From: Nitrospira sp.
Lineage (GTDB): Bacteria; Nitrospirota; Nitrospiria; Nitrospirales; Nitrospiraceae
Assembly (NCBI GenBank): GCA_024998625.1
Contig: JACOEL010000002.1
Span: 124,001 to 188,000, forward strand
Direction of reading: 5' to 3'
DNA length: 64,000 bases
This document shows positions 54,119-62,206 of this stretch, piece after piece. Position 1 is the first letter of the stretch, and the number at the start of each line of letters is the position of its first letter. The notes below the pieces were generated by a model. It was not told where the DNA came from. It was given only the letters and a program-made list of their open reading frames with translations, and ran no database searches. The position numbers and the translations under genes were made by a program.

Positions 54119-54342
54119 GGGGGTTCTCCCGGAAGATTCCTGTGATGATGGGCGATGTGTGTGCAGACTGCAAGTGGACTGCGAGGCCGGCCACGCGGCG
54201 GCTGTCGAGAGCAGGGTGGAGATATCAGTCGGACCATCGTACCGGCACAGAATTACAACGAGGTCAGGAGATGATTAAGTTCTTATGAACCATGCGCCGG
54301 CTGGTTGTGTCGAGCAGCCGTACCTGGTATGGGTGGAACCAC

Positions 54343-55026
54343 ATGGCCACGATCAAAGCAGCCATGTTCGATTTCGACGGGGTGTTGTTCGACACCGAGC
54401 CGTTGCATTTCGAGATGTTTCGCCAGGTGCTTCGAATGGAAGGGGTGACGCTTGCTCCGGACCGATACCATGCGCGCTATGTCGGGTTGACGGATCAGGC
54501 TTGCTTCCGCGCGGTCTTGACCGACTCCGGTCGGTCTGCGGTAACGGCCGACACTCTCGACCGACTCGTGCAATGCAAAACCGATCTTATGCAGGAAGCG
54601 TTGCGCAAGGCCTTGCCCGTTCTGTCCGGCGTCAGGGAATTTGTCGCAGCCGTGACGGAGACCTGCCGTACGGCCATTGCATCCGGTGCGTTGCGCCAGG
54701 AGATTGCCTTGTGTTTGGAGTTGGCGGGGATGACGTCGATGTTCGAGCATATCTCGGCGGCGCAGGATGTTCGTCAGGGCAAACCCGATCCGGCCCTGTA
54801 TCTGCATGCGCTCGACGCGCTGAATCGGCGGTCGCCGCTACGAGCCGGCGAATGCGTGGCGTTTGAAGATACGCCGCACGGGATCGAGGCAGCCCGCAAG
54901 GCCGGCATGCGCTGCGTTGGGGTGGCGACGACGTTGCCCGAGAGTCGTCTGGTGCAGGCCGATCTTGTCGTCCCGTCGCTTCACGCATTGCCCCTGAGCC
55001 AGGTGCTCGCTCAGCTCTCGTTCTGA
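54343..55026 (+). CDS. HAD-family phosphatase (beta-phosphoglucomutase-like)
   Basis: A 227-residue HAD hydrolase. Motif I AAMFDFDGVLFDTEPLH has the nucleophile DxD; IASGALRQEI is motif II; the Lys of motif III is in RQGKPDPALY; FEDTPHGIEAARKAGMRCVG is motif IV. The cap domain is inserted after motif I, as in beta-phosphoglucomutase and related sugar-phosphate phosphatases. The substrate is unknown. A 132-bp palindromic element follows. Confidence 0.9.
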   Translation: MATIKAAMFDFDGVLFDTEPLHFEMFRQVLRMEGVTLAPDRYHARYVGLTDQACFRAVLTDSGRSAVTADTLDRLVQCKTDLMQEALRKALPVLSGVREFVAAVTETCRTAIASGALRQEIALCLELAGMTSMFEHISAAQDVRQGKPDPALYLHALDALNRRSPLRAGECVAFEDTPHGIEAARKAGMRCVGVATTLPESRLVQADLVVPSLHALPLSQVLAQLSF

Positions 55027-55032
55027 ATCTAA

Positions 55033-55164
55033 CCCGGACTATTCATGAATGCCTGCTCCGTCGTCCGATCCTCTCGCTCGGCGGGGCTGTTCTCGTTCGC
55101 CCTCCTCGACGGACAGCAAGTACGCCTGCGTCGGCCTCGCGACGGCATTCATGAATAGTCCGGG
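55033..55164. mobile_element. Palindromic MITE, 132 bp
   Basis: The first and last 21 bases are perfect inverted repeats (55033-55053 with 55144-55164), beginning CCCGGACTATTCATGAAT. CTAA lies just outside both ends (55029-55032 and 55165-55168), a 4-base target duplication. The inner 90 bases are GC-rich and non-coding. The TSD type matches the MITE at 36939, but the ends differ, so the two are different families. Confidence 0.7.
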
Positions 55165-55297: not shown

Positions 55298-57703
55298 ATG
55301 AGCCGAACGACGACGATCTCCTCGAATTCCCCTCTGCGCCCGGCCGAGCCCCGCCATGTGCTCGAAACGGAGGCAGCGCAATTCCTTGCCGGTCTCCCCG
55401 TTCTGCCGTTCTCCCATAATGACATCACGGCTGGTTCCGAGAGTGAGTTACAGGCGGCGGTCTGCGGCATCTCCGAAGATGTCGATTTGGCGCGCACGAT
55501 TCAGAGTTCCAATTATCTGCACAATATCCGTGAACGGACGGCGGCCGGCGAGAGTCCGAGGATCGTCATCAGGCAGTTGCAGGAATTCCTCGCCTCGCCG
55601 GATGCGACCGTTTGGGAAAATTCGTGGGTGCGGTTTCCCCGTCGGCTCCTGAATCGAACCGCCAATCAACTCTTCGAGGGCGATCTCGCAGCCGACAAGC
55701 GCCATGCCATGGGGCCGCTTCGGGCCGATGCCCATCGGTATCTGCTGACGGAGCAGGACGAGGAGTGGGTCCGCCTTCCGATCAGTTACCTGCTGAAGCT
55801 CACGCTGGCCCAGGTGATCGAAGAAATCGAGTGGGATGCGCCACTGCTCGCGATTGAGGGCCGACGGCTGCTAAATCACTTCCTGAACGACAATAGCTCG
55901 CCCGAAACCTTCTCCTTCTACGTGTCTCCGATGGATCGGGCGCAAGGGATGGGAAGCGGTATCGCGCGGGAAACGGCGGTCCGGTTTCTGTTTACGCATC
56001 TGCTGACGTTGTATGCCAATCGGCAATTCGGTTTGCAGGAGAGCGGACAACAGGTGTTGGTCTATGCGTCACCCCATCCGCCGTTGCGGCAGCGCCGCCT
56101 CAACGGACTGGTGTCTGATGCCTTCTACCGCGAATTGTTCATGAACCCTTGCTTGTCGGGGTGGGAGCGGGGCGAGGAGAAGTCTCAGTACATGGGGCTC
56201 TGTCATGAGGTGCTGTCGCGCAGCCAACTGAATGCCGTCGTCCGGTTGAAGGATGCGGGGATCATCACGCGCAACCTCGTCGTGCTGCCGTCCACCTCGA
56301 ATATCAGTCTGGCCAACAACGGCACACACCTCAGTTTGGGGAGTCGTATTCTGACGCAGGCGCTGCAATCCGGCGGGAAGGCGTTTTCGGCTGCGCATGA
56401 AAAGGTCGTCGGCGACTTGGTGATCAAGATCGTGGAGCATTTTCTGCCGCTGTTTGCCGGCACCTATAGCGCGGCGCCCTACCGCATGAACTTTCGTGAT
56501 TTCCATCCGGAAACGGCCTTGGGTTTCCTGCCGCACGAATTGGACTTTACCCATTTGCGCATGTTGTGGCGCCGGTGGAAAAAGAAGGCTGGTCTCTCGG
56601 TGTTCGGACGCTCCATCACGCCGGTCGGTCCCTTGTGGGTGGATCGTGCCCTCAGCGCGCTCTTTCATTTGCGCGGCGACTTTCTCCCCGATTTCAGGTT
56701 GATCGACTACCTCGTGTCCCTGTTGTCGACCGATCAAAGTCCGGCCCTCAACGGGATCCAGGGGAATGATCTCCGGCTGAAACGCGATCTAGGGCAGCTC
56801 GGGGTCTTCGACGAACGCATGGCCCTCTACCTGTTCTACAAGTTGCGCGCGGAATCGGTGATGGGATTCTCCGGTTTCGAGGGGCGGCAGCACAGTCTGT
56901 TCTGGAATCACCTGGACGATTTCGCCGATGCGGCAAGCCTGCAGGCGCTGGTGACGGCCTTGGCCTTTCGCTATATCGCAACCGGCACCGTGACGCACGA
57001 CGATATCCCGGACGATCCGTTCACCGAAAGTGAGCGGCGACAGTGCATCTTCGCGTCGGCCATCGGCGTCGGGACGGTGAATGTGCGCGACGGGGGACCG
57101 AACCGGTTCCTGGCGCGCATCTTGAGCAGGACCCAGAAAACCAGAGTCAGCCGGCGGTATGCAGGGCATCTGCGGGTCCGCGTCGATGATTACCGCCTGG
57201 CGCTTCTGGCGACGCTTGAAGAAGATGGTGCCGAATTGATCGAGGCATTTCAGTTTTCTGGGCATCTGGGTCGCCTGCGTCAACGACTGCTCGAACCGGA
57301 GAGCCACAGTACCGCCGGAAAGTTGACCAGGGGCATTTTGGATTCTATCGGTGCGGAAAATCCGATGCAGTTGTCCGGTGAGGAGTTCGCGCAGGCAGCG
57401 GAGGCCTATTACCGCCGTCAGTTACGCACCCAGTATGTTCGAGAGGGACTCGGCTGTGTTCGGGAGGATTTGCAGGCGATCGACGAGGGCGAGTCCGGGT
57501 GCGACAGGCGGTATCGCGGGATTGCGACGGCGGTGATCGGTTCCCGATCAGCCGTGGATGTCCTTGCGGAAGCCGAAGAGGAATTATTGTCCGAGACGGC
57601 GGACGTCCCCACCCTGCGCCGCTGTCTGGCCCTCTGTCTCCTCACGATTACCCGGGCCGGGGCGGCATCCCTTAGCCGGGATGGCCGGTCGCTGGCCTCA
57701 TGA
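55298..57703 (+). CDS. Conserved protein of unknown function, 801 aa (operon gene 1)
   Basis: An 801-residue protein with GGGAGG 6 bases before ATG 55298. I do not recognise the family. It is soluble, without signal peptide or membrane helices, mixed alpha/beta, with segments such as NLVVLPSTSNISLANNGTHL, FFPLFAGTYS-like strand and GNDLRLKRDLGQLGVFDERM. It has no P-loop, radical SAM or Rossmann motif that I can see. It overlaps the next gene by ATGA. As first gene of a four-gene set with a PSD-like and an Lgt-like enzyme, a lipid-linked role is likely by context only. Confidence 0.75.
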   Translation: MSRTTTISSNSPLRPAEPRHVLETEAAQFLAGLPVLPFSHNDITAGSESELQAAVCGISEDVDLARTIQSSNYLHNIRERTAAGESPRIVIRQLQEFLASPDATVWENSWVRFPRRLLNRTANQLFEGDLAADKRHAMGPLRADAHRYLLTEQDEEWVRLPISYLLKLTLAQVIEEIEWDAPLLAIEGRRLLNHFLNDNSSPETFSFYVSPMDRAQGMGSGIARETAVRFLFTHLLTLYANRQFGLQESGQQVLVYASPHPPLRQRRLNGLVSDAFYRELFMNPCLSGWERGEEKSQYMGLCHEVLSRSQLNAVVRLKDAGIITRNLVVLPSTSNISLANNGTHLSLGSRILTQALQSGGKAFSAAHEKVVGDLVIKIVEHFLPLFAGTYSAAPYRMNFRDFHPETALGFLPHELDFTHLRMLWRRWKKKAGLSVFGRSITPVGPLWVDRALSALFHLRGDFLPDFRLIDYLVSLLSTDQSPALNGIQGNDLRLKRDLGQLGVFDERMALYLFYKLRAESVMGFSGFEGRQHSLFWNHLDDFADAASLQALVTALAFRYIATGTVTHDDIPDDPFTESERRQCIFASAIGVGTVNVRDGGPNRFLARILSRTQKTRVSRRYAGHLRVRVDDYRLALLATLEEDGAELIEAFQFSGHLGRLRQRLLEPESHSTAGKLTRGILDSIGAENPMQLSGEEFAQAAEAYYRRQLRTQYVREGLGCVREDLQAIDEGESGCDRRYRGIATAVIGSRSAVDVLAEAEEELLSETADVPTLRRCLALCLLTITRAGAASLSRDGRSLAS

Positions 57704-58728
57704 TCGCGCCGCATCAATACATCGAGCGTGAGACCAGCCTGATCAAGACCGAGCGGTTCTGCGGCGATCGGTGGCTCAATTGGGCGTATCGCGCACTCTG
57801 GGAGGATGCGGGCTGGTTGATGAAGGCCTTAACCTCCCAACGTACGACACAGGTGTTGGGGTTCTTTCACTATGACCGGCCGTTTACCGCCACTCGGGAG
57901 GCGGTTGTGAGGTGCGCCCGGGCGCTGGAGATCGACCTTTCAGAATGCCTGGACCCTCAGGATCGCCTGAATACTCTGCGACGTCTCTTCCAGCGGCGGT
58001 TGCGCTACTGGCAGGTACGCCCGATGGATGAGGATCCGCGGGCCATCGTGTCTCCGGCCGATGCCCGATTGTTGCTCGGGTCGTTTGCCGACGACTCTTC
58101 GCTCTTTCTCAAGGGGAAATTTTTCGACTATGACGAACTGCTCGGCATCGACCGGTCCCGATGGCTGCGCCTGTTTCGGGAGGGGGACTGGGCGATCTGC
58201 AGGCTGACCCCGGATAAATATCATTACAACCACAGCCCGGTATCGGGGCGGGTGCTGGACTGCTATGAAATTTCAGGCCGCTACCATTCCTGCAATCCCG
58301 GCCCGGTTGTGGTGGTAGCCACACCGTACTCGAAGAATAAACGTGTGGTGACGATCATCGATACGGAGGTGCCGGGCGGGTCGCGCGTGGGGCTGGTGGC
58401 CATGATCGAAATCGTGGCGTTGATGATCGGCCACATCGATCAATGCTACTCCGCCGTCGCCTATGACGATCCCCGGCCCATCCAGATCGGGATGATGATA
58501 GAAAGAGGGCGCCCGAAGAGCCTCTATCGTCCGGGAAGCTCCACCGACGTGCTGTTATTTGAGCCGGGCCGGGTGGCGTTCTGCGAAGATCTTGTCCGGA
58601 ATCGGTTTCGTCCCGGGGTGCAGAGTCGGTTTTCTCAAGGGTTTGGCCGGGCGCTCGTCGAGACGGATGTGCGGGTGCGCTCCACGATCGGTTGGAGGCG
58701 CGAAGGATCACCTGATGGCCGTTCATGA
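57700..58728 (+). CDS. Phosphatidylserine decarboxylase-like enzyme (operon gene 2)
   Basis: A 342-residue protein with the PSD features: Asp121 in VSPADARLLLGSF, His175 and His178 in DKYHYNHSPVSGRV, KGKFFDYDELLG, GLVAMIEIVALMIGHI and the self-cleavage region YRPGSSTDVLLFE, where the pyruvoyl group forms at Ser280 or 281. One residue more than the usual LGST spacing separates Ser and the following Phe. The N-terminal 115 residues are unlike classical PSDs. It should remove the carboxyl of a phosphatidylserine-like lipid to give an ethanolamine-type head group, if active. It overlaps both neighbours. Confidence 0.85.
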   Translation: MIAPHQYIERETSLIKTERFCGDRWLNWAYRALWEDAGWLMKALTSQRTTQVLGFFHYDRPFTATREAVVRCARALEIDLSECLDPQDRLNTLRRLFQRRLRYWQVRPMDEDPRAIVSPADARLLLGSFADDSSLFLKGKFFDYDELLGIDRSRWLRLFREGDWAICRLTPDKYHYNHSPVSGRVLDCYEISGRYHSCNPGPVVVVATPYSKNKRVVTIIDTEVPGGSRVGLVAMIEIVALMIGHIDQCYSAVAYDDPRPIQIGMMIERGRPKSLYRPGSSTDVLLFEPGRVAFCEDLVRNRFRPGVQSRFSQGFGRALVETDVRVRSTIGWRREGSPDGRS

Positions 58729-59770
58729 TGTTGCTGCCGCTCTGCTGATCCTGATGTATACGGCCCTGTTCCGGTGGGCCTTTCGTGTCTTGCCGCGCGA
58801 AGGGTGGCAGGTGCTTGCGACGGTGCCGCAGGCGCGACGTCCGGACGGACGGTGGATGGGCCTCAATCTGACTTATTACGGAGCGTTCACGGCCAGTGCC
58901 GTCGTGGTGGCCGTGGCCCTGGCCATCGTGCTCCTGGGGAGTGTGGCGGTGCCGCTCGACGCCATTCTGTTGCTGTCCGTGACGCTGTTGGGCGCCTGTG
59001 TGCCGGCGGCCAAAATTCTGGCCCGGCTGATCGAGGGAAAGGCCAATACCTTCACGATCGGCGGCGCGTCCATGTTCGGCTTATTTCTTGCGCCGTGGAT
59101 TGTGACGGCGCTGAATGCCGCATTCCCGGCGAGGGAGGACAACGTATTGCCGGTGACCGCCGTGCTGGCGACGGTCGCCATCGCGTATGCGTTCGGGGAA
59201 GGGACGGGCCGTCTGGCTTGCCTGAGCTTCGGCTGTTGTTATGGCGCTCCGCTGAACCGGAGTCATCCGTGGATTGCCGGATTGTTTGTGCATCACCACA
59301 CGACGTTTACGGGCGAGACCAGGAAGGCCGCCTATGAAAGCGGCTTGGAGTCGGTGCCGCTGGTTCCCGTTCAAGCGATGACGGCGGTGGTTTCGGTCGC
59401 TACGGGTATGGCCGGTCTCTGGTTGTTCTTTCATGGTCGGATGGCGGCGGCATTCTTGTTCACCGTCGTGGTCACGCAGATCTGGCGGGTTGGATCGGAA
59501 TGTTTGCGCGCCGATTATCGTGGCGGCAGCAGGATGTCGTGGTACCAGGCCCTGTCGCTCGCCGGGATAGCGTATGCTGCGTTCCTGGCTTTCTGGCTGG
59601 CGGACGTGCCGTCGGTGCCACCGGACGTGCTGCGTGGGATCCGACTCCTATGGCAACCCGGCGTGATTTTGTGCCTGCAAGGTCTGTGGCTCGGTATGTT
59701 TTTTTTCACCGGCCGAAGTCGAGTCACCACGGCAACACTGTCGATGTATGTCGTGAAGGATCAGGTTTGA
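58715..59770 (+). CDS. Lgt-like integral membrane protein (operon gene 3)
   Basis: A 351-residue protein with about nine membrane helices. GEGTGRLACLSFGCCYGAPL corresponds to the Lgt signature G-R-x-G-N-F-x-N-x-E-x-x-G, with Cys in place of several polar residues, as seen in Lgt-like proteins that are not certain to be lipoprotein diacylglyceryl transferases. FGLFLAPWIVT and VPLVPVQAMTAV are other conserved parts. It likely transfers a lipid group to a protein or another lipid in the membrane. It overlaps the PSD-like gene by 14 bases and the TPR gene by 4 (TTGA). Confidence 0.7.
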   Translation: MAVHDVAAALLILMYTALFRWAFRVLPREGWQVLATVPQARRPDGRWMGLNLTYYGAFTASAVVVAVALAIVLLGSVAVPLDAILLLSVTLLGACVPAAKILARLIEGKANTFTIGGASMFGLFLAPWIVTALNAAFPAREDNVLPVTAVLATVAIAYAFGEGTGRLACLSFGCCYGAPLNRSHPWIAGLFVHHHTTFTGETRKAAYESGLESVPLVPVQAMTAVVSVATGMAGLWLFFHGRMAAAFLFTVVVTQIWRVGSECLRADYRGGSRMSWYQALSLAGIAYAAFLAFWLADVPSVPPDVLRGIRLLWQPGVILCLQGLWLGMFFFTGRSRVTTATLSMYVVKDQV

Positions 59771-60501
59771 TTGCCCGGCGACCGTACGGATATCGTCTGA
59801 TTGCCGTCCTCGGTCTCGCCTGCCTGTCGTTGATTGCTCCCGCGCGAGCGGAGCACGAATCCCTACCGCCGGACTATCCCGACTCACTGGAGCGTGAGCT
59901 GGCCGCCCTGCAAGCGAAGATTGCCACACAGGGTGTCAGGCTCGACCGGCTGCTCGCAGGGGCCGAGCTGTACCTGGACATTGCCGATGACCTGTTCGAG
60001 GACGACGCGCAGAAGCGTCTGGCCTATGAGGCGGCGGCGGAGATGGCGAAGCGCGCCGTACAGATGGAGGAACGGAACGCCCAGGCCCATTTTCTGTATG
60101 CTGCAGCTCGCGGAAGCGCGGAGCGATTGAAGGGCATCGCCAATGCCGGGCTGGTGTTGGGGGAAATCAAGCAGCATGTCCGTCGGGCGATCGAGCTCGA
60201 TCCGGGCCATGCGCAGGCGCTGCAAATGATGGGAGGCCTCTATGCGGAGTTGCCCTGGCTGTTGGGCGGGAGCGAGAAAGAGGCCGAATCGTATCTGCGG
60301 CGCGCGATTGCGGCGGACGGACGTTATACCAATGCCCATCTCATCCTGGCCCGACTCCTCCTCAAACAGGGCCGATCCGGCGAAGCGCGCGCGCATCTCG
60401 ACGCCGTACTTCATATCGAGCATCCACATTATCCCTATGCCTGGAGGCGCAGATTCCGTCCGGAAGCGGAACGATTGCTGAAGGCGCTTCCCGCTTCCTG
60501 A
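59767..60501 (+). CDS. Secreted TPR protein (operon gene 4)
   Basis: A 244-residue protein starting at TTG 59767 with AAGGA upstream, inside the stop of the Lgt-like gene. A signal peptide (LIAVLGLACLSLIAPARA) is followed by TPR-like helices: RLAYEAAAEMAKRAVQMEER, HVRRAIELDPGHAQALQMMG, YTNAHLILARLLLKQGRSGE. The segment AELPWLLGGSEKEAESYLRR resembles TPR proteins of the RRGDR/TrbC-like kind. It probably holds the periplasmic side of the complex together. Confidence 0.75.
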   Translation: MIARRPYGYRLIAVLGLACLSLIAPARAEHESLPPDYPDSLERELAALQAKIATQGVRLDRLLAGAELYLDIADDLFEDDAQKRLAYEAAAEMAKRAVQMEERNAQAHFLYAAARGSAERLKGIANAGLVLGEIKQHVRRAIELDPGHAQALQMMGGLYAELPWLLGGSEKEAESYLRRAIAADGRYTNAHLILARLLLKQGRSGEARAHLDAVLHIEHPHYPYAWRRRFRPEAERLLKALPAS

Positions 60502-60598: not shown

Positions 60599-62206
60599 TC
60601 ACGCAAAATGGCGAAAGAACCAAAACAGGGACCCTGCTAGTACGATGGACGCGGGGAGGGTCAGGACCCATGCCAGTGCGAGGTGCCGGACCGTCTGCCA
60701 CTGTAAACCGGACCGATTGGCCGCCATGGTGCCCGCTACGCCGGAGGACAGCACTTGTGTCGTGCTGACCGGCAGCCCGAAGAGATCCGCTGCGCCGATT
60801 GTTGTCATCGCCACCAATTCGGCGCTGGCGCCCTGGCCGTACGACAGATGCGTTTTCCCGATCTTCTCCCCGACCGTCACGACGATGCGTTTCCAGCCGA
60901 TCATGGTGCCCAGCCCAAGCGCAATGGCCACGGCAGCTTTGACCCACACAGGGATATATTTGGTGGCGTTATCCAACATGGATTTATAGTGCAGCAAGAT
61001 GTCTCGGTCCGCTCGCGCAAAGGCCGGCTCGCGGGTCTTATCCATCCAACGCAGGGATTCTCCCAGCAGGTACATGTCGTTCCGCACGTTGGAGGTGTGC
61101 TCCGTGGGCATCTGGGCGACGGTGGCATAGGAGGCAATCTGTGTGCGCACTATGCCGCTTAATGCGCGAAGGGCCGGCAAGGTATCCGGGCGAACCTCGT
61201 GGGTGCGAAGGTATTCTGCGACGGTCTGTCGTGGGTCCGCCGGGGTGATGGTTGTCTTGCTGTAGCGTTGGAATACGGCCTCCGATTTGCTCGACGCCTC
61301 CACGAAGGCAGGTGTGTACGAAATGTCTACGGTGCGATTGAGCGCATAGACGGTCGGCACGGTTCCAATGAGGATCAGCATGATGAGACCCATGCCCTTT
61401 TGTCCGTCGTTGGACCCATGGGCAAAGCTGACACCCGTGCAGGTGAGAATGAGCAGACCCCGGATCCACAGGGGCGGTGGTGTCTTGCCGCGCGGCGGTT
61501 TGTACAACTTCTCGATGGGGATGGCCTTCATGGCGATCAGGAGGAGAAACGCGGCGGCAGAGAATCCGATCAGCGGTGAAAACAGGAGGGACTTGCCCAC
61601 GTTGAAGGCCTGGGTCCAATCGACGCCGCTGGTATTCGTGCCGCCGGCTGCCATCAGCTGGTTAGTGAAACCGACGCCGATCACGGAGCCGATCAGCGCA
61701 TGCGAACTGGAGGAAGGCAGACCCAGATACCATGTCCCCAGGTTCCAGAGGATGGCGGCGATCAGCAGCGCAAAAACCATGGCGAATCCGGCACCGGCGC
61801 TCACTTGGAGAATCAGTTCGACCGGCAGCAGGGCAACGATTCCGAACGCGACTGCCCCGGATGCGAGCATGACGCCGATAAAGTTCCACAGACCGGACCA
61901 AGCCACGGCGAGGTGCGGCGGCATGGAATGCGTATAGATGACGGTCGCGACGGCGTTCGCCGTGTCATGAAACCCGTTGACGAATTCGAAGCCCAGCGCG
62001 ATCAGCAGGGCAAACCCGAGCAGGATAAACGGCCAGACTGAGGAGGCGCGAACATCGGAGAGATCCGAGGTCAATTCACCGGCGACGTAGATTCCGCCGA
62101 TCGTGAGCAGGATCAGGATGAGGAAGAGGCCGATTTGTGAAGTCCCTCCTTCGAGAGTTGTCTCGAAGGAATCGACAGCGGCGGTTTCGACGGGGGGCGG
62201 TGTCAT
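60599..62206 (-). CDS. pit: Inorganic phosphate transporter, PiT family
   Basis: A 535-residue transporter with AAAGGA before ATG 62206 and about ten membrane helices. The paired PiT signatures are GFHDTANAVATVIYT and SFAHGSNDGQKGMGLIM, with the second repeat and a long cytoplasmic loop between. PiT carries metal-phosphate with protons or sodium. The central loop of about 150 residues is helical and may be regulatory. Confidence 0.95.
   Translation of the reverse strand: MTPPPVETAAVDSFETTLEGGTSQIGLFLILILLTIGGIYVAGELTSDLSDVRASSVWPFILLGFALLIALGFEFVNGFHDTANAVATVIYTHSMPPHLAVAWSGLWNFIGVMLASGAVAFGIVALLPVELILQVSAGAGFAMVFALLIAAILWNLGTWYLGLPSSSSHALIGSVIGVGFTNQLMAAGGTNTSGVDWTQAFNVGKSLLFSPLIGFSAAAFLLLIAMKAIPIEKLYKPPRGKTPPPLWIRGLLILTCTGVSFAHGSNDGQKGMGLIMLILIGTVPTVYALNRTVDISYTPAFVEASSKSEAVFQRYSKTTITPADPRQTVAEYLRTHEVRPDTLPALRALSGIVRTQIASYATVAQMPTEHTSNVRNDMYLLGESLRWMDKTREPAFARADRDILLHYKSMLDNATKYIPVWVKAAVAIALGLGTMIGWKRIVVTVGEKIGKTHLSYGQGASAELVAMTTIGAADLFGLPVSTTQVLSSGVAGTMAANRSGLQWQTVRHLALAWVLTLPASIVLAGSLFWFFRHFA

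Follow-up and report, generated by a model that had tools for sequence, protein, structure and literature searches.

What is made by an operon that joins a phosphatidylserine decarboxylase (PSD)-like enzyme to a relative of Lgt and to a large protein without a sequence family? The question is raised by four overlapping genes in a 64,000-nucleotide stretch of a Nitrospira sp. genome (contig JACOEL010000002.1, positions 124,001 to 188,000), which is referred to here as the window. All four genes lie on the forward strand. Gene 1 (55298-57703, ATG start) encodes an 801-residue protein with a ligase fold, gene 2 (57700-58728, ATG start) a PSD-like pyruvoyl-type decarboxylase of 342 residues, gene 3 (58715-59770, ATG start) an integral membrane protein of 351 residues with the Lgt fold and gene 4 (59767-60501, TTG start) a tetratricopeptide repeat (TPR) protein of 244 residues. 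The coordinates confirm the successive overlaps of 4, 14 and 4 bases that an earlier note on this DNA had pointed out. We propose that the first three enzymes form a phosphate-limitation lipid pathway leading to a phosphorus-free aminolipid, a reading for which we consider the case evenly balanced.

The earlier note had described the 801-residue protein as unrecognised, and at the level of sequence this description stands. No Pfam family was found above cut-off and none in NCBIfam or PHROGs, and a search against the sequences of the PDB gave no result. When 49 members of the family were compared with Pfam, the best E value was 0.004, each listed family was seen in one member only and none belonged to the glutamate-cysteine ligase (GCL)/glutamine synthetase superfamily. 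The fold, in contrast, can be placed. An AlphaFold model built with 49 sequences (pLDDT 86.8, pTM 0.90) matched 3ln7 (Z 17.9), E. coli GshA (2d32, Z 17.3) and YbdK (1r8g, Z 16.9) in the VIA fold comparison, followed by PafA/Dop (Z 11.6-14.2), yeast GCL (Z 9.6) and glutamine synthetase III (Z 5.9). In the list of fold matches 18 rows of the superfamily have Z values of 9.6-17.9, and the next, unrelated row has a Z of 4.2. Residues E48, E50, E203, H344, E528 and R530, which are identical in 49/49 aligned sequences, sit on or at strands of the model, and by eye their order (ExE, E, H, ExR) is what we take to be that of the metal/ATP motifs of the superfamily. Two results weigh against this placement. 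Foldseek with the same model put the same families on top but with weak matches (best E 0.059), and hhalign of gene 1 against the single E. coli GshA and YbdK sequences gave no match. By its predicted fold, therefore, the gene 1 product is a new, Pfam-less member of the GCL/glutamine synthetase superfamily. It shares the fold of GCL, YbdK, PafA/Dop and glutamine synthetase but differs from them in its length of about 800 residues and in having no family match at the sequence level, and it would act as an ATP-dependent carboxylate-amine ligase. In one genome (G127:C1:1346084-1348344) the match to the ligase gene is divided into two pieces with a slight overlap, probably because of a frame change, either real or a sequencing error.

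The second protein is more easily recognised. Gene 2 matches the PSD family PF02666 with an E value of 3.1e-34 (118.8 bits, cut-off 22) and E. coli PSD in hhalign with a probability of 98.3 (E 2.6e-14). The residues that had been singled out from the sequence, Asp121, His175/His178 and the GSS-T motif at 279-282, are all present: Asp121, His175, His178, Ser280 and Ser281 are identical in 43/43 aligned sequences, Gly279 is kept in 42/43 and Thr282 in 38/43. The Asp and His residues are presumably catalytic and the Ser is presumably the residue of self-cleavage. Gene 2 thus has the sequence family, the Asp/His/Ser residues and the GSS motif in common with PSD, but differs from the canonical enzyme as a diverged second copy that reaches no NCBIfam PSD equivalog cut-off (best 121.1 against 371 bits; TIGR00163 77 against 111.75) and has no PssA partner. 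The host genome holds a canonical PSD and a canonical Lgt gene elsewhere, so the copies in the operon are extra enzymes. The other PSD gene of the genome is followed by a CDP-alcohol-phosphatidyltransferase-like gene (PssA-like, by eye), and ordinary synthesis of phosphatidylethanolamine (PE) by the operon was rejected, the canonical PSD being present.

The intact PSD residues and the strong family match would also suit a pathway that keeps its phosphorus, in which the PSD-like enzyme would produce PE or a similar lipid, to be modified or recycled by the ligase and the Lgt-like protein, for instance as N-acylated or N-glutamylated PE or by scavenging of phosphatidylglycerol (PG) headgroups. 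Such a pathway appears rather doubtful to us, as a canonical PSD already stands beside the PssA-like gene and the phosphate-linked setting of the genes in Desulfuromonadia (described below) speaks against an extra phospholipid. Apparently broken PSD genes in three genomes were rejected as such, since the internal TAA/TGA codons flagged for G006, G016 and G025 are stops lying early at the C-terminus. In the 1030-contig assembly G010 a frame change divides the PSD gene in two; this is taken as a sequencing error.

Gene 3 belongs to the LGT family PF01790 (E 1.9e-11, 44.2 bits, cut-off 24.9), so that both family identities proposed from the sequence, PSD-like and Lgt-like, proved right. Its model (pLDDT 91.5) can be superposed on E. 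coli Lgt (5azb) with Z 13.7 and 3.9 A over 236 residues. A published report on the E. coli enzyme (PMC4728403) describes Arg143 and Arg239 as essential and Y26 as a contact of PG; no His103 mutant complemented, the HGGL motif is the proposed peptide-binding site and the active site is believed to be on the periplasmic side. In an alignment of the two proteins whose probability is 0.8% but whose motifs match, R143 corresponds to R166 of gene 3 and R239/E243/R246 to R258/E262/R265, and the signature GRLGNFINGELWG pairs with GRLACLSFGCCYG; by eye only, Y26 pairs with Y55. Residues R166, R258, E262, R265 and Y55 are invariant in 45/45 sequences. In place of GRLGNFINGELWG gene 3 carries the motif GRLACxSFGCCYG, and its cysteines C169, C174 and C175 are likewise invariant in 45/45. 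Read most simply, these sequence comparisons suggest an enzyme that has kept its PG end and exchanged its peptide end.

In the same alignment (probability 0.8%) His103 falls on F121, and this column is never His in the 45/45 gene 3 sequences (V, L, I, T, F or A). E. coli N146, N149 and E151 correspond to C, F and C. With His103 missing and these three positions altered, diacylglyceryl transfer could be lost or different. Gene 3 shares the fold and the PG-side residues with E. coli Lgt, yet it is not filed as an Lgt enzyme because the His103 equivalent is missing. The earlier note had raised the loss of catalytic residues as a possible objection; the PSD-like protein proved intact, and the Lgt-like protein lacks His103 while having the equivalents of Arg143 and Arg239. 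This combination makes modification of a lipoprotein seem less likely than that of a small molecule, and of the special lipid or lipoprotein modification suggested earlier it is the lipid part that survives.

The same residues bear on whether a protein or peptide might be modified. A ligase of the GCL/PafA type would then modify a protein or peptide, or make a peptide, which the Lgt-like protein would lipidate and from which the PSD-like enzyme would remove a terminal carboxyl. The fold matches of gene 1 include PafA and Dop, both acting on a protein tag; Lgt normally modifies proteins, and a TPR protein is attached in Nitrospirota. We nevertheless regard this as unlikely, because gene 3 is without the His of the Lgt HGGL motif and because none of the listed neighbour clusters resembles a peptide substrate (by judgement, among open reading frames of at least 70 residues). 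The three invariant cysteines, together with the GCL-type fold and the polyphosphate kinase (PPK) and Ppx genes near some loci, could instead indicate that a soluble thiol or amine metabolite is made for use in stress or polyphosphate physiology; the Lgt-like protein would then be a transporter or a cysteine-motif redox protein. It is difficult to account for the invariant equivalents of R143, R239, E243 and R246 of the PG site unless the substrate is a lipid, and a non-lipid product seems improbable.

Whether the genes form a unit was examined in 61 genomes, namely the host's own and 60 relatives. The 801-residue gene was matched in 15 of them, the Lgt-like gene in 14 and the PSD-like gene in 13. 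Full-length genes 1, 2 and 3 lie on one contig in 11 genomes, in the same order each time, and the order is identical in every locus of this set that is long enough to show it; for these three genes the proposed operon is therefore upheld. Partial operons occur in four genomes, where the contig ends inside gene 1 in G002 and contig ends cut the operon in G008 and G010. The fourth, G060 (L059, 8898-9920), retains a decayed remnant made up of a short N-terminal piece of the ligase, a C-terminal piece of the Lgt-like protein and a TPR gene whose frame is broken, which suggests loss of the operon as a unit.

A scan of 84,980 species yielded 203 stretches in which a relative of gene 1 is encoded; of these, the 80 best were kept as loci. 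According to the record titles, they come from Nitrospira, Nitrospirales, Geobacter and relatives, Desulfuromonadales, Syntrophaceae, Desulfobacteraceae, Nitrospinae, SAR324 and others. The three-gene core spans Nitrospirota, Deltaproteobacteria-type lineages, Nitrospinota and SAR324. One locus (L086) is titled Candidatus Brocadia, an unexpected host, and may be a wrongly binned contig. The alignments used above were made from the 80 loci and comprise the window plus 48 loci (A5, gene 1), 44 loci (A6, gene 3) and 42 loci (A7, gene 2); for A7, L073 and L143 were excluded and L090, L112 and L136 shortened owing to a stop codon in the stretch. Locus and genome sets overlap and are not independent (L064 is G015 and L073 is G061, for example, and L049 and L064 are one genome).

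The PSD-like gene is present in 72/80 loci, in 71 of them directly 3' of gene 1, and the Lgt-like gene in 66/80, in 61 of them directly 3' of the PSD-like gene. Most of the gaps coincide with the ends of the loci: five of the 8 loci without the PSD-like gene end within 251 bases of gene 1, and 9 of the 14 without the Lgt-like gene end within 1136 bases. In three full loci that have no PSD-like gene (L081, L096 and L120) the PSD-like and Lgt-like genes adjoin elsewhere in the genome, and for L085 and L107 the Lgt-like gene lies elsewhere in the genome. Among the genomes examined, L123, whose locus ends 49 bases past gene 1, is the only one in which neither gene was found.

The fourth gene does not share this distribution. 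Gene 4 has TPR matches in Pfam together with TAtT (PF16811, E 6e-7), and its N-terminus has by eye a signal-like stretch. At E 1e-10 the TPR gene occurs in 7/80 loci, all titled Nitrospira-type, with a weak match in L117 (Nitrospirales). It is an accessory seen only in Nitrospirota, and the four-gene unit was rejected as the general form; the core consists of three genes.

Of 117 Desulfuromonadia genomes, drawn evenly, 40 carry gene 1, 40 have the PSD-like gene (at E 1e-60 or below) and 41 give a match to the Lgt-like gene. The same 40 genomes hold all three, and the 77 genomes without the ligase contain no full-length match; the 41st Lgt-like match is a 30-residue fragment in G172. The families are thus not scattered singly, a possibility that the earlier note had named against its own reading. 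The chance of such co-occurrence would be 3e-32 if genomes were independent, a figure that serves only as a guide since they are related. Shared ancestry alone is a poor account of it, given that the genes are present in one-third and absent from two-thirds of the genomes and that separated loci exist. In the 37 Desulfuromonadia loci available as 19-kb stretches (G119, G124 and G173, whose operon is split over contigs, were left out), gene 1 and the PSD-like gene are neighbours in 35 and the PSD-like and Lgt-like genes in 33. Mirror-tree correlations of 0.77-0.88 have no baseline.

In which setting would these enzymes be needed? Among the neighbours in the 80 loci, clusters were found for PstS, a Pst-type permease, PstB, PhoU, PPK, Ppx, CHAD, a histidine kinase and a response regulator, and further for a GT4 glycosyltransferase, zinc phospholipase C, DUF2062 and PsiE. 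Where a cluster was named from Pfam one member was tested, and the Pst names are our own assignment. The families tested for enrichment were chosen after the neighbourhoods had been seen, and the 37 Desulfuromonadia loci were therefore compared with 57 control loci: the canonical lgt locus of each of the 37 genomes, plus 20 arbitrary stretches taken from a part of them (NAPRTase was dropped as a second control gene, being found in only 5/37 genomes). When each family was represented by a single probe from outside taxa, phosphate or polyphosphate genes were found in 11/37 loci versus 0/57 controls (p 1.2e-5), and with all cluster members as probes in 17/37 versus 0/57. A GT4 glycosyltransferase gene, again with a probe from other taxa, was found in 11/37 versus 0/57. 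None of the 37 Desulfuromonadia loci was matched by the outside-taxon probes for the Pst permease, PstB, CHAD and Pit. Also in these 37 loci (L159-L195), genes for a DUF2062-like membrane protein are present in 23/37 and for zinc phospholipase C in 8/37, against 0/57 in the controls. A cluster of the PsiE family (phosphate-starvation-inducible; one member tested) lies near the operon in 4/80 loci, e.g. L109:6641-7078. The GT4 glycosyltransferase, of about 815 residues and with a PHP-like N-terminus by eye (L137:3539-5986), forms a cluster in 18/80 loci and may be a glycolipid enzyme of phosphate limitation.

The regions upstream of gene 1 point in a similar direction. In well-studied bacteria PhoB binds to 11-bp direct repeats. 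Five-base matches upstream of gene 1 number 79 at period 11 and 68 at period 22, against 24-66 at the other periods from 5 to 30, and the corresponding counts in control pieces are 36 and 57, within an overall range of 36-135. The half-site is close to (G/T)T(A/T/C)ACA, and a model of three half-sites 11 bases apart reached 606 summed bits as compared to at most 425 in six shuffled sets, which were fitted with 6 seed words and 10 rounds (10 seed words and 15 rounds for the real set). Classical Pho-box half-sites gave two matches in 69 upstream sequences. For scoring we used 71/80 upstream regions, one per locus and longer than 300 bases, with Desulfuromonadia status taken from the record titles; the matrix was trained on 30 Desulfuromonadia ligase genes and the 41 others were held out. 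A score of at least 12 was obtained by 12/41 held-out ligase genes, 2/10 pstS genes (median 10.8), 5/17 GT4 genes, 2/8 PPK genes, 1/58 PSD-like genes, 0/59 Lgt-like genes and 0/456 random pieces. As the random pieces are mostly coding DNA, genes of the 57 control loci with at least 120 bases free upstream are the preferred control, and 1/205 of these scored at least 12 (median 0.9). Against them, the held-out ligase genes differ with p 1.2e-9 by count and pstS with p 0.006 by count and 6e-6 by rank. Mainly in Desulfuromonadia, the repeats upstream of the gene set resemble Pho boxes and those of pstS, so that PhoB may control the gene set.

Several observations argue against such control or limit its reach. 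Period 11 is not prominent with seven-base words (5 versus 12 at period 13), the shuffles ignore the relatedness of the loci, and some held-out loci titled only Deltaproteobacteria could themselves be Desulfuromonadia. High scores are also seen in 5/20 histidine-kinase genes and in 12/150 other gapped genes within the 80 loci; repeats beyond the operon would be expected of a regulon in a phosphate neighbourhood, though they are open to other readings as well. In the genus of the window the upstream repeats were not found, the six Nitrospira-type loci L064-L069 scoring -3.6 to 1.1. The upstream region of the window itself scores 5.5 with the first matrix, and other Nitrospirota score 8.9-15.4.

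The chemistries of Lgt, PSD and GCL, brought together in a phosphate setting, suggest a phosphorus-free aminolipid. In the proposed pathway the Lgt-like protein would transfer the diacylglyceryl group of PG to a small acceptor bearing an amino acid, whose nucleophile may be, for example, the hydroxyl of serine or homoserine or the thiol of cysteine, and the glycerol phosphate would be freed for reuse. The PSD-like enzyme would then strip the carboxyl group off the amino-acid headgroup to leave an amine, as PSD does on phosphatidylserine. Finally, the GCL-fold ligase could use ATP to join this amine, or the acceptor before lipidation, to a carboxylate such as glutamate, giving the phosphorus-free aminolipid as the end product. 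The individual reactions are inferred, and the acceptor, the sequence of steps and the product are guesses. Location poses the main difficulty for the pathway: Lgt is believed to work on the periplasmic side and an ATP-dependent ligase is necessarily cytoplasmic, so export or flipping would be needed. The full form of the proposal, that an Lgt-derived enzyme moves the diacylglyceryl group of PG onto a small molecule and that decarboxylation of the PSD type and amidation of the GCL type then yield a new class of aminolipid, serving as a phosphate-starvation lipid in many Geobacter-like and sulfate-reducing bacteria and also in part of Nitrospira, is a tentative one that we hold at slightly less than even confidence.

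To our knowledge, the known bacterial replacements of phospholipids are few, namely glycolipids, ornithine lipids and betaine lipids. Agt and OlsF, which serve the first two in a sulfate reducer, are enzymes that we take to be unrelated to those of the gene set. A study of that organism, Desulfovibrio alaskensis, reports phosphorus-free glycolipids made via Agt and ornithine lipids made via OlsF homologues at low phosphate, and its main text does not mention PSD (PMC5193443). The setting of phosphate limitation is in common with our operon, which often neighbours a GT4 glycosyltransferase gene, but the enzymes there are a glycosyltransferase (Agt) and an ornithine lipid synthase (OlsF). In 5.39 million open-access papers (with subscription papers and preprints outside this scope) no work joining PSD with an Lgt enzyme was found, nor any joining glutamine synthetase, PSD and Geobacter; a paper on phosphate in Candida contains both PSD and 'diacylglyceryl', and three others deal with aminolipids and Geobacter. 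The enzyme superfamilies and phosphate-saving lipids as such are already known; the combination of genes and the ligase family appear new. In many soil and sediment bacteria these three genes occur as a set, which probably serves to make an undescribed membrane lipid when phosphate is scarce. If the proposed pathway is true, Lgt-type transfer onto a small molecule would be a new membrane-lipid chemistry and a new route by which bacteria save phosphorus, and, speculatively, it could explain unidentified aminolipids of sediment bacteria. The three genes are a potential marker in metagenomes, and a previously unknown family of 800-residue proteins gains a fold and a testable type of reaction.

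In the window, none of the genes appears broken, a possibility rejected in the absence of internal stops and with the conserved residues invariant. On the 3' side the operon faces a convergent neighbour outside it, a phosphate transporter of the PHO4 family (60599-62206, reverse strand; PF01384, E 7.8e-83). This gene adjoins the operon in 6/7 same-genus loci long enough to show it and is not beside it in L049, nor in L055-L057 from other genera. Directly 5' of the operon lies a gene for a HAD-family phosphatase (54292-55026), which is kept in same-genus relatives and in L055. The gap between the HAD gene and the operon contains a perfect 20-bp inverted repeat (55033-55164), the arms of which are separated by 92 bases; 2 matches were found versus 0.01 expected. 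Both arms, as a 16-base core, recur at the same place in G015, and one arm recurs in G019 (L048).

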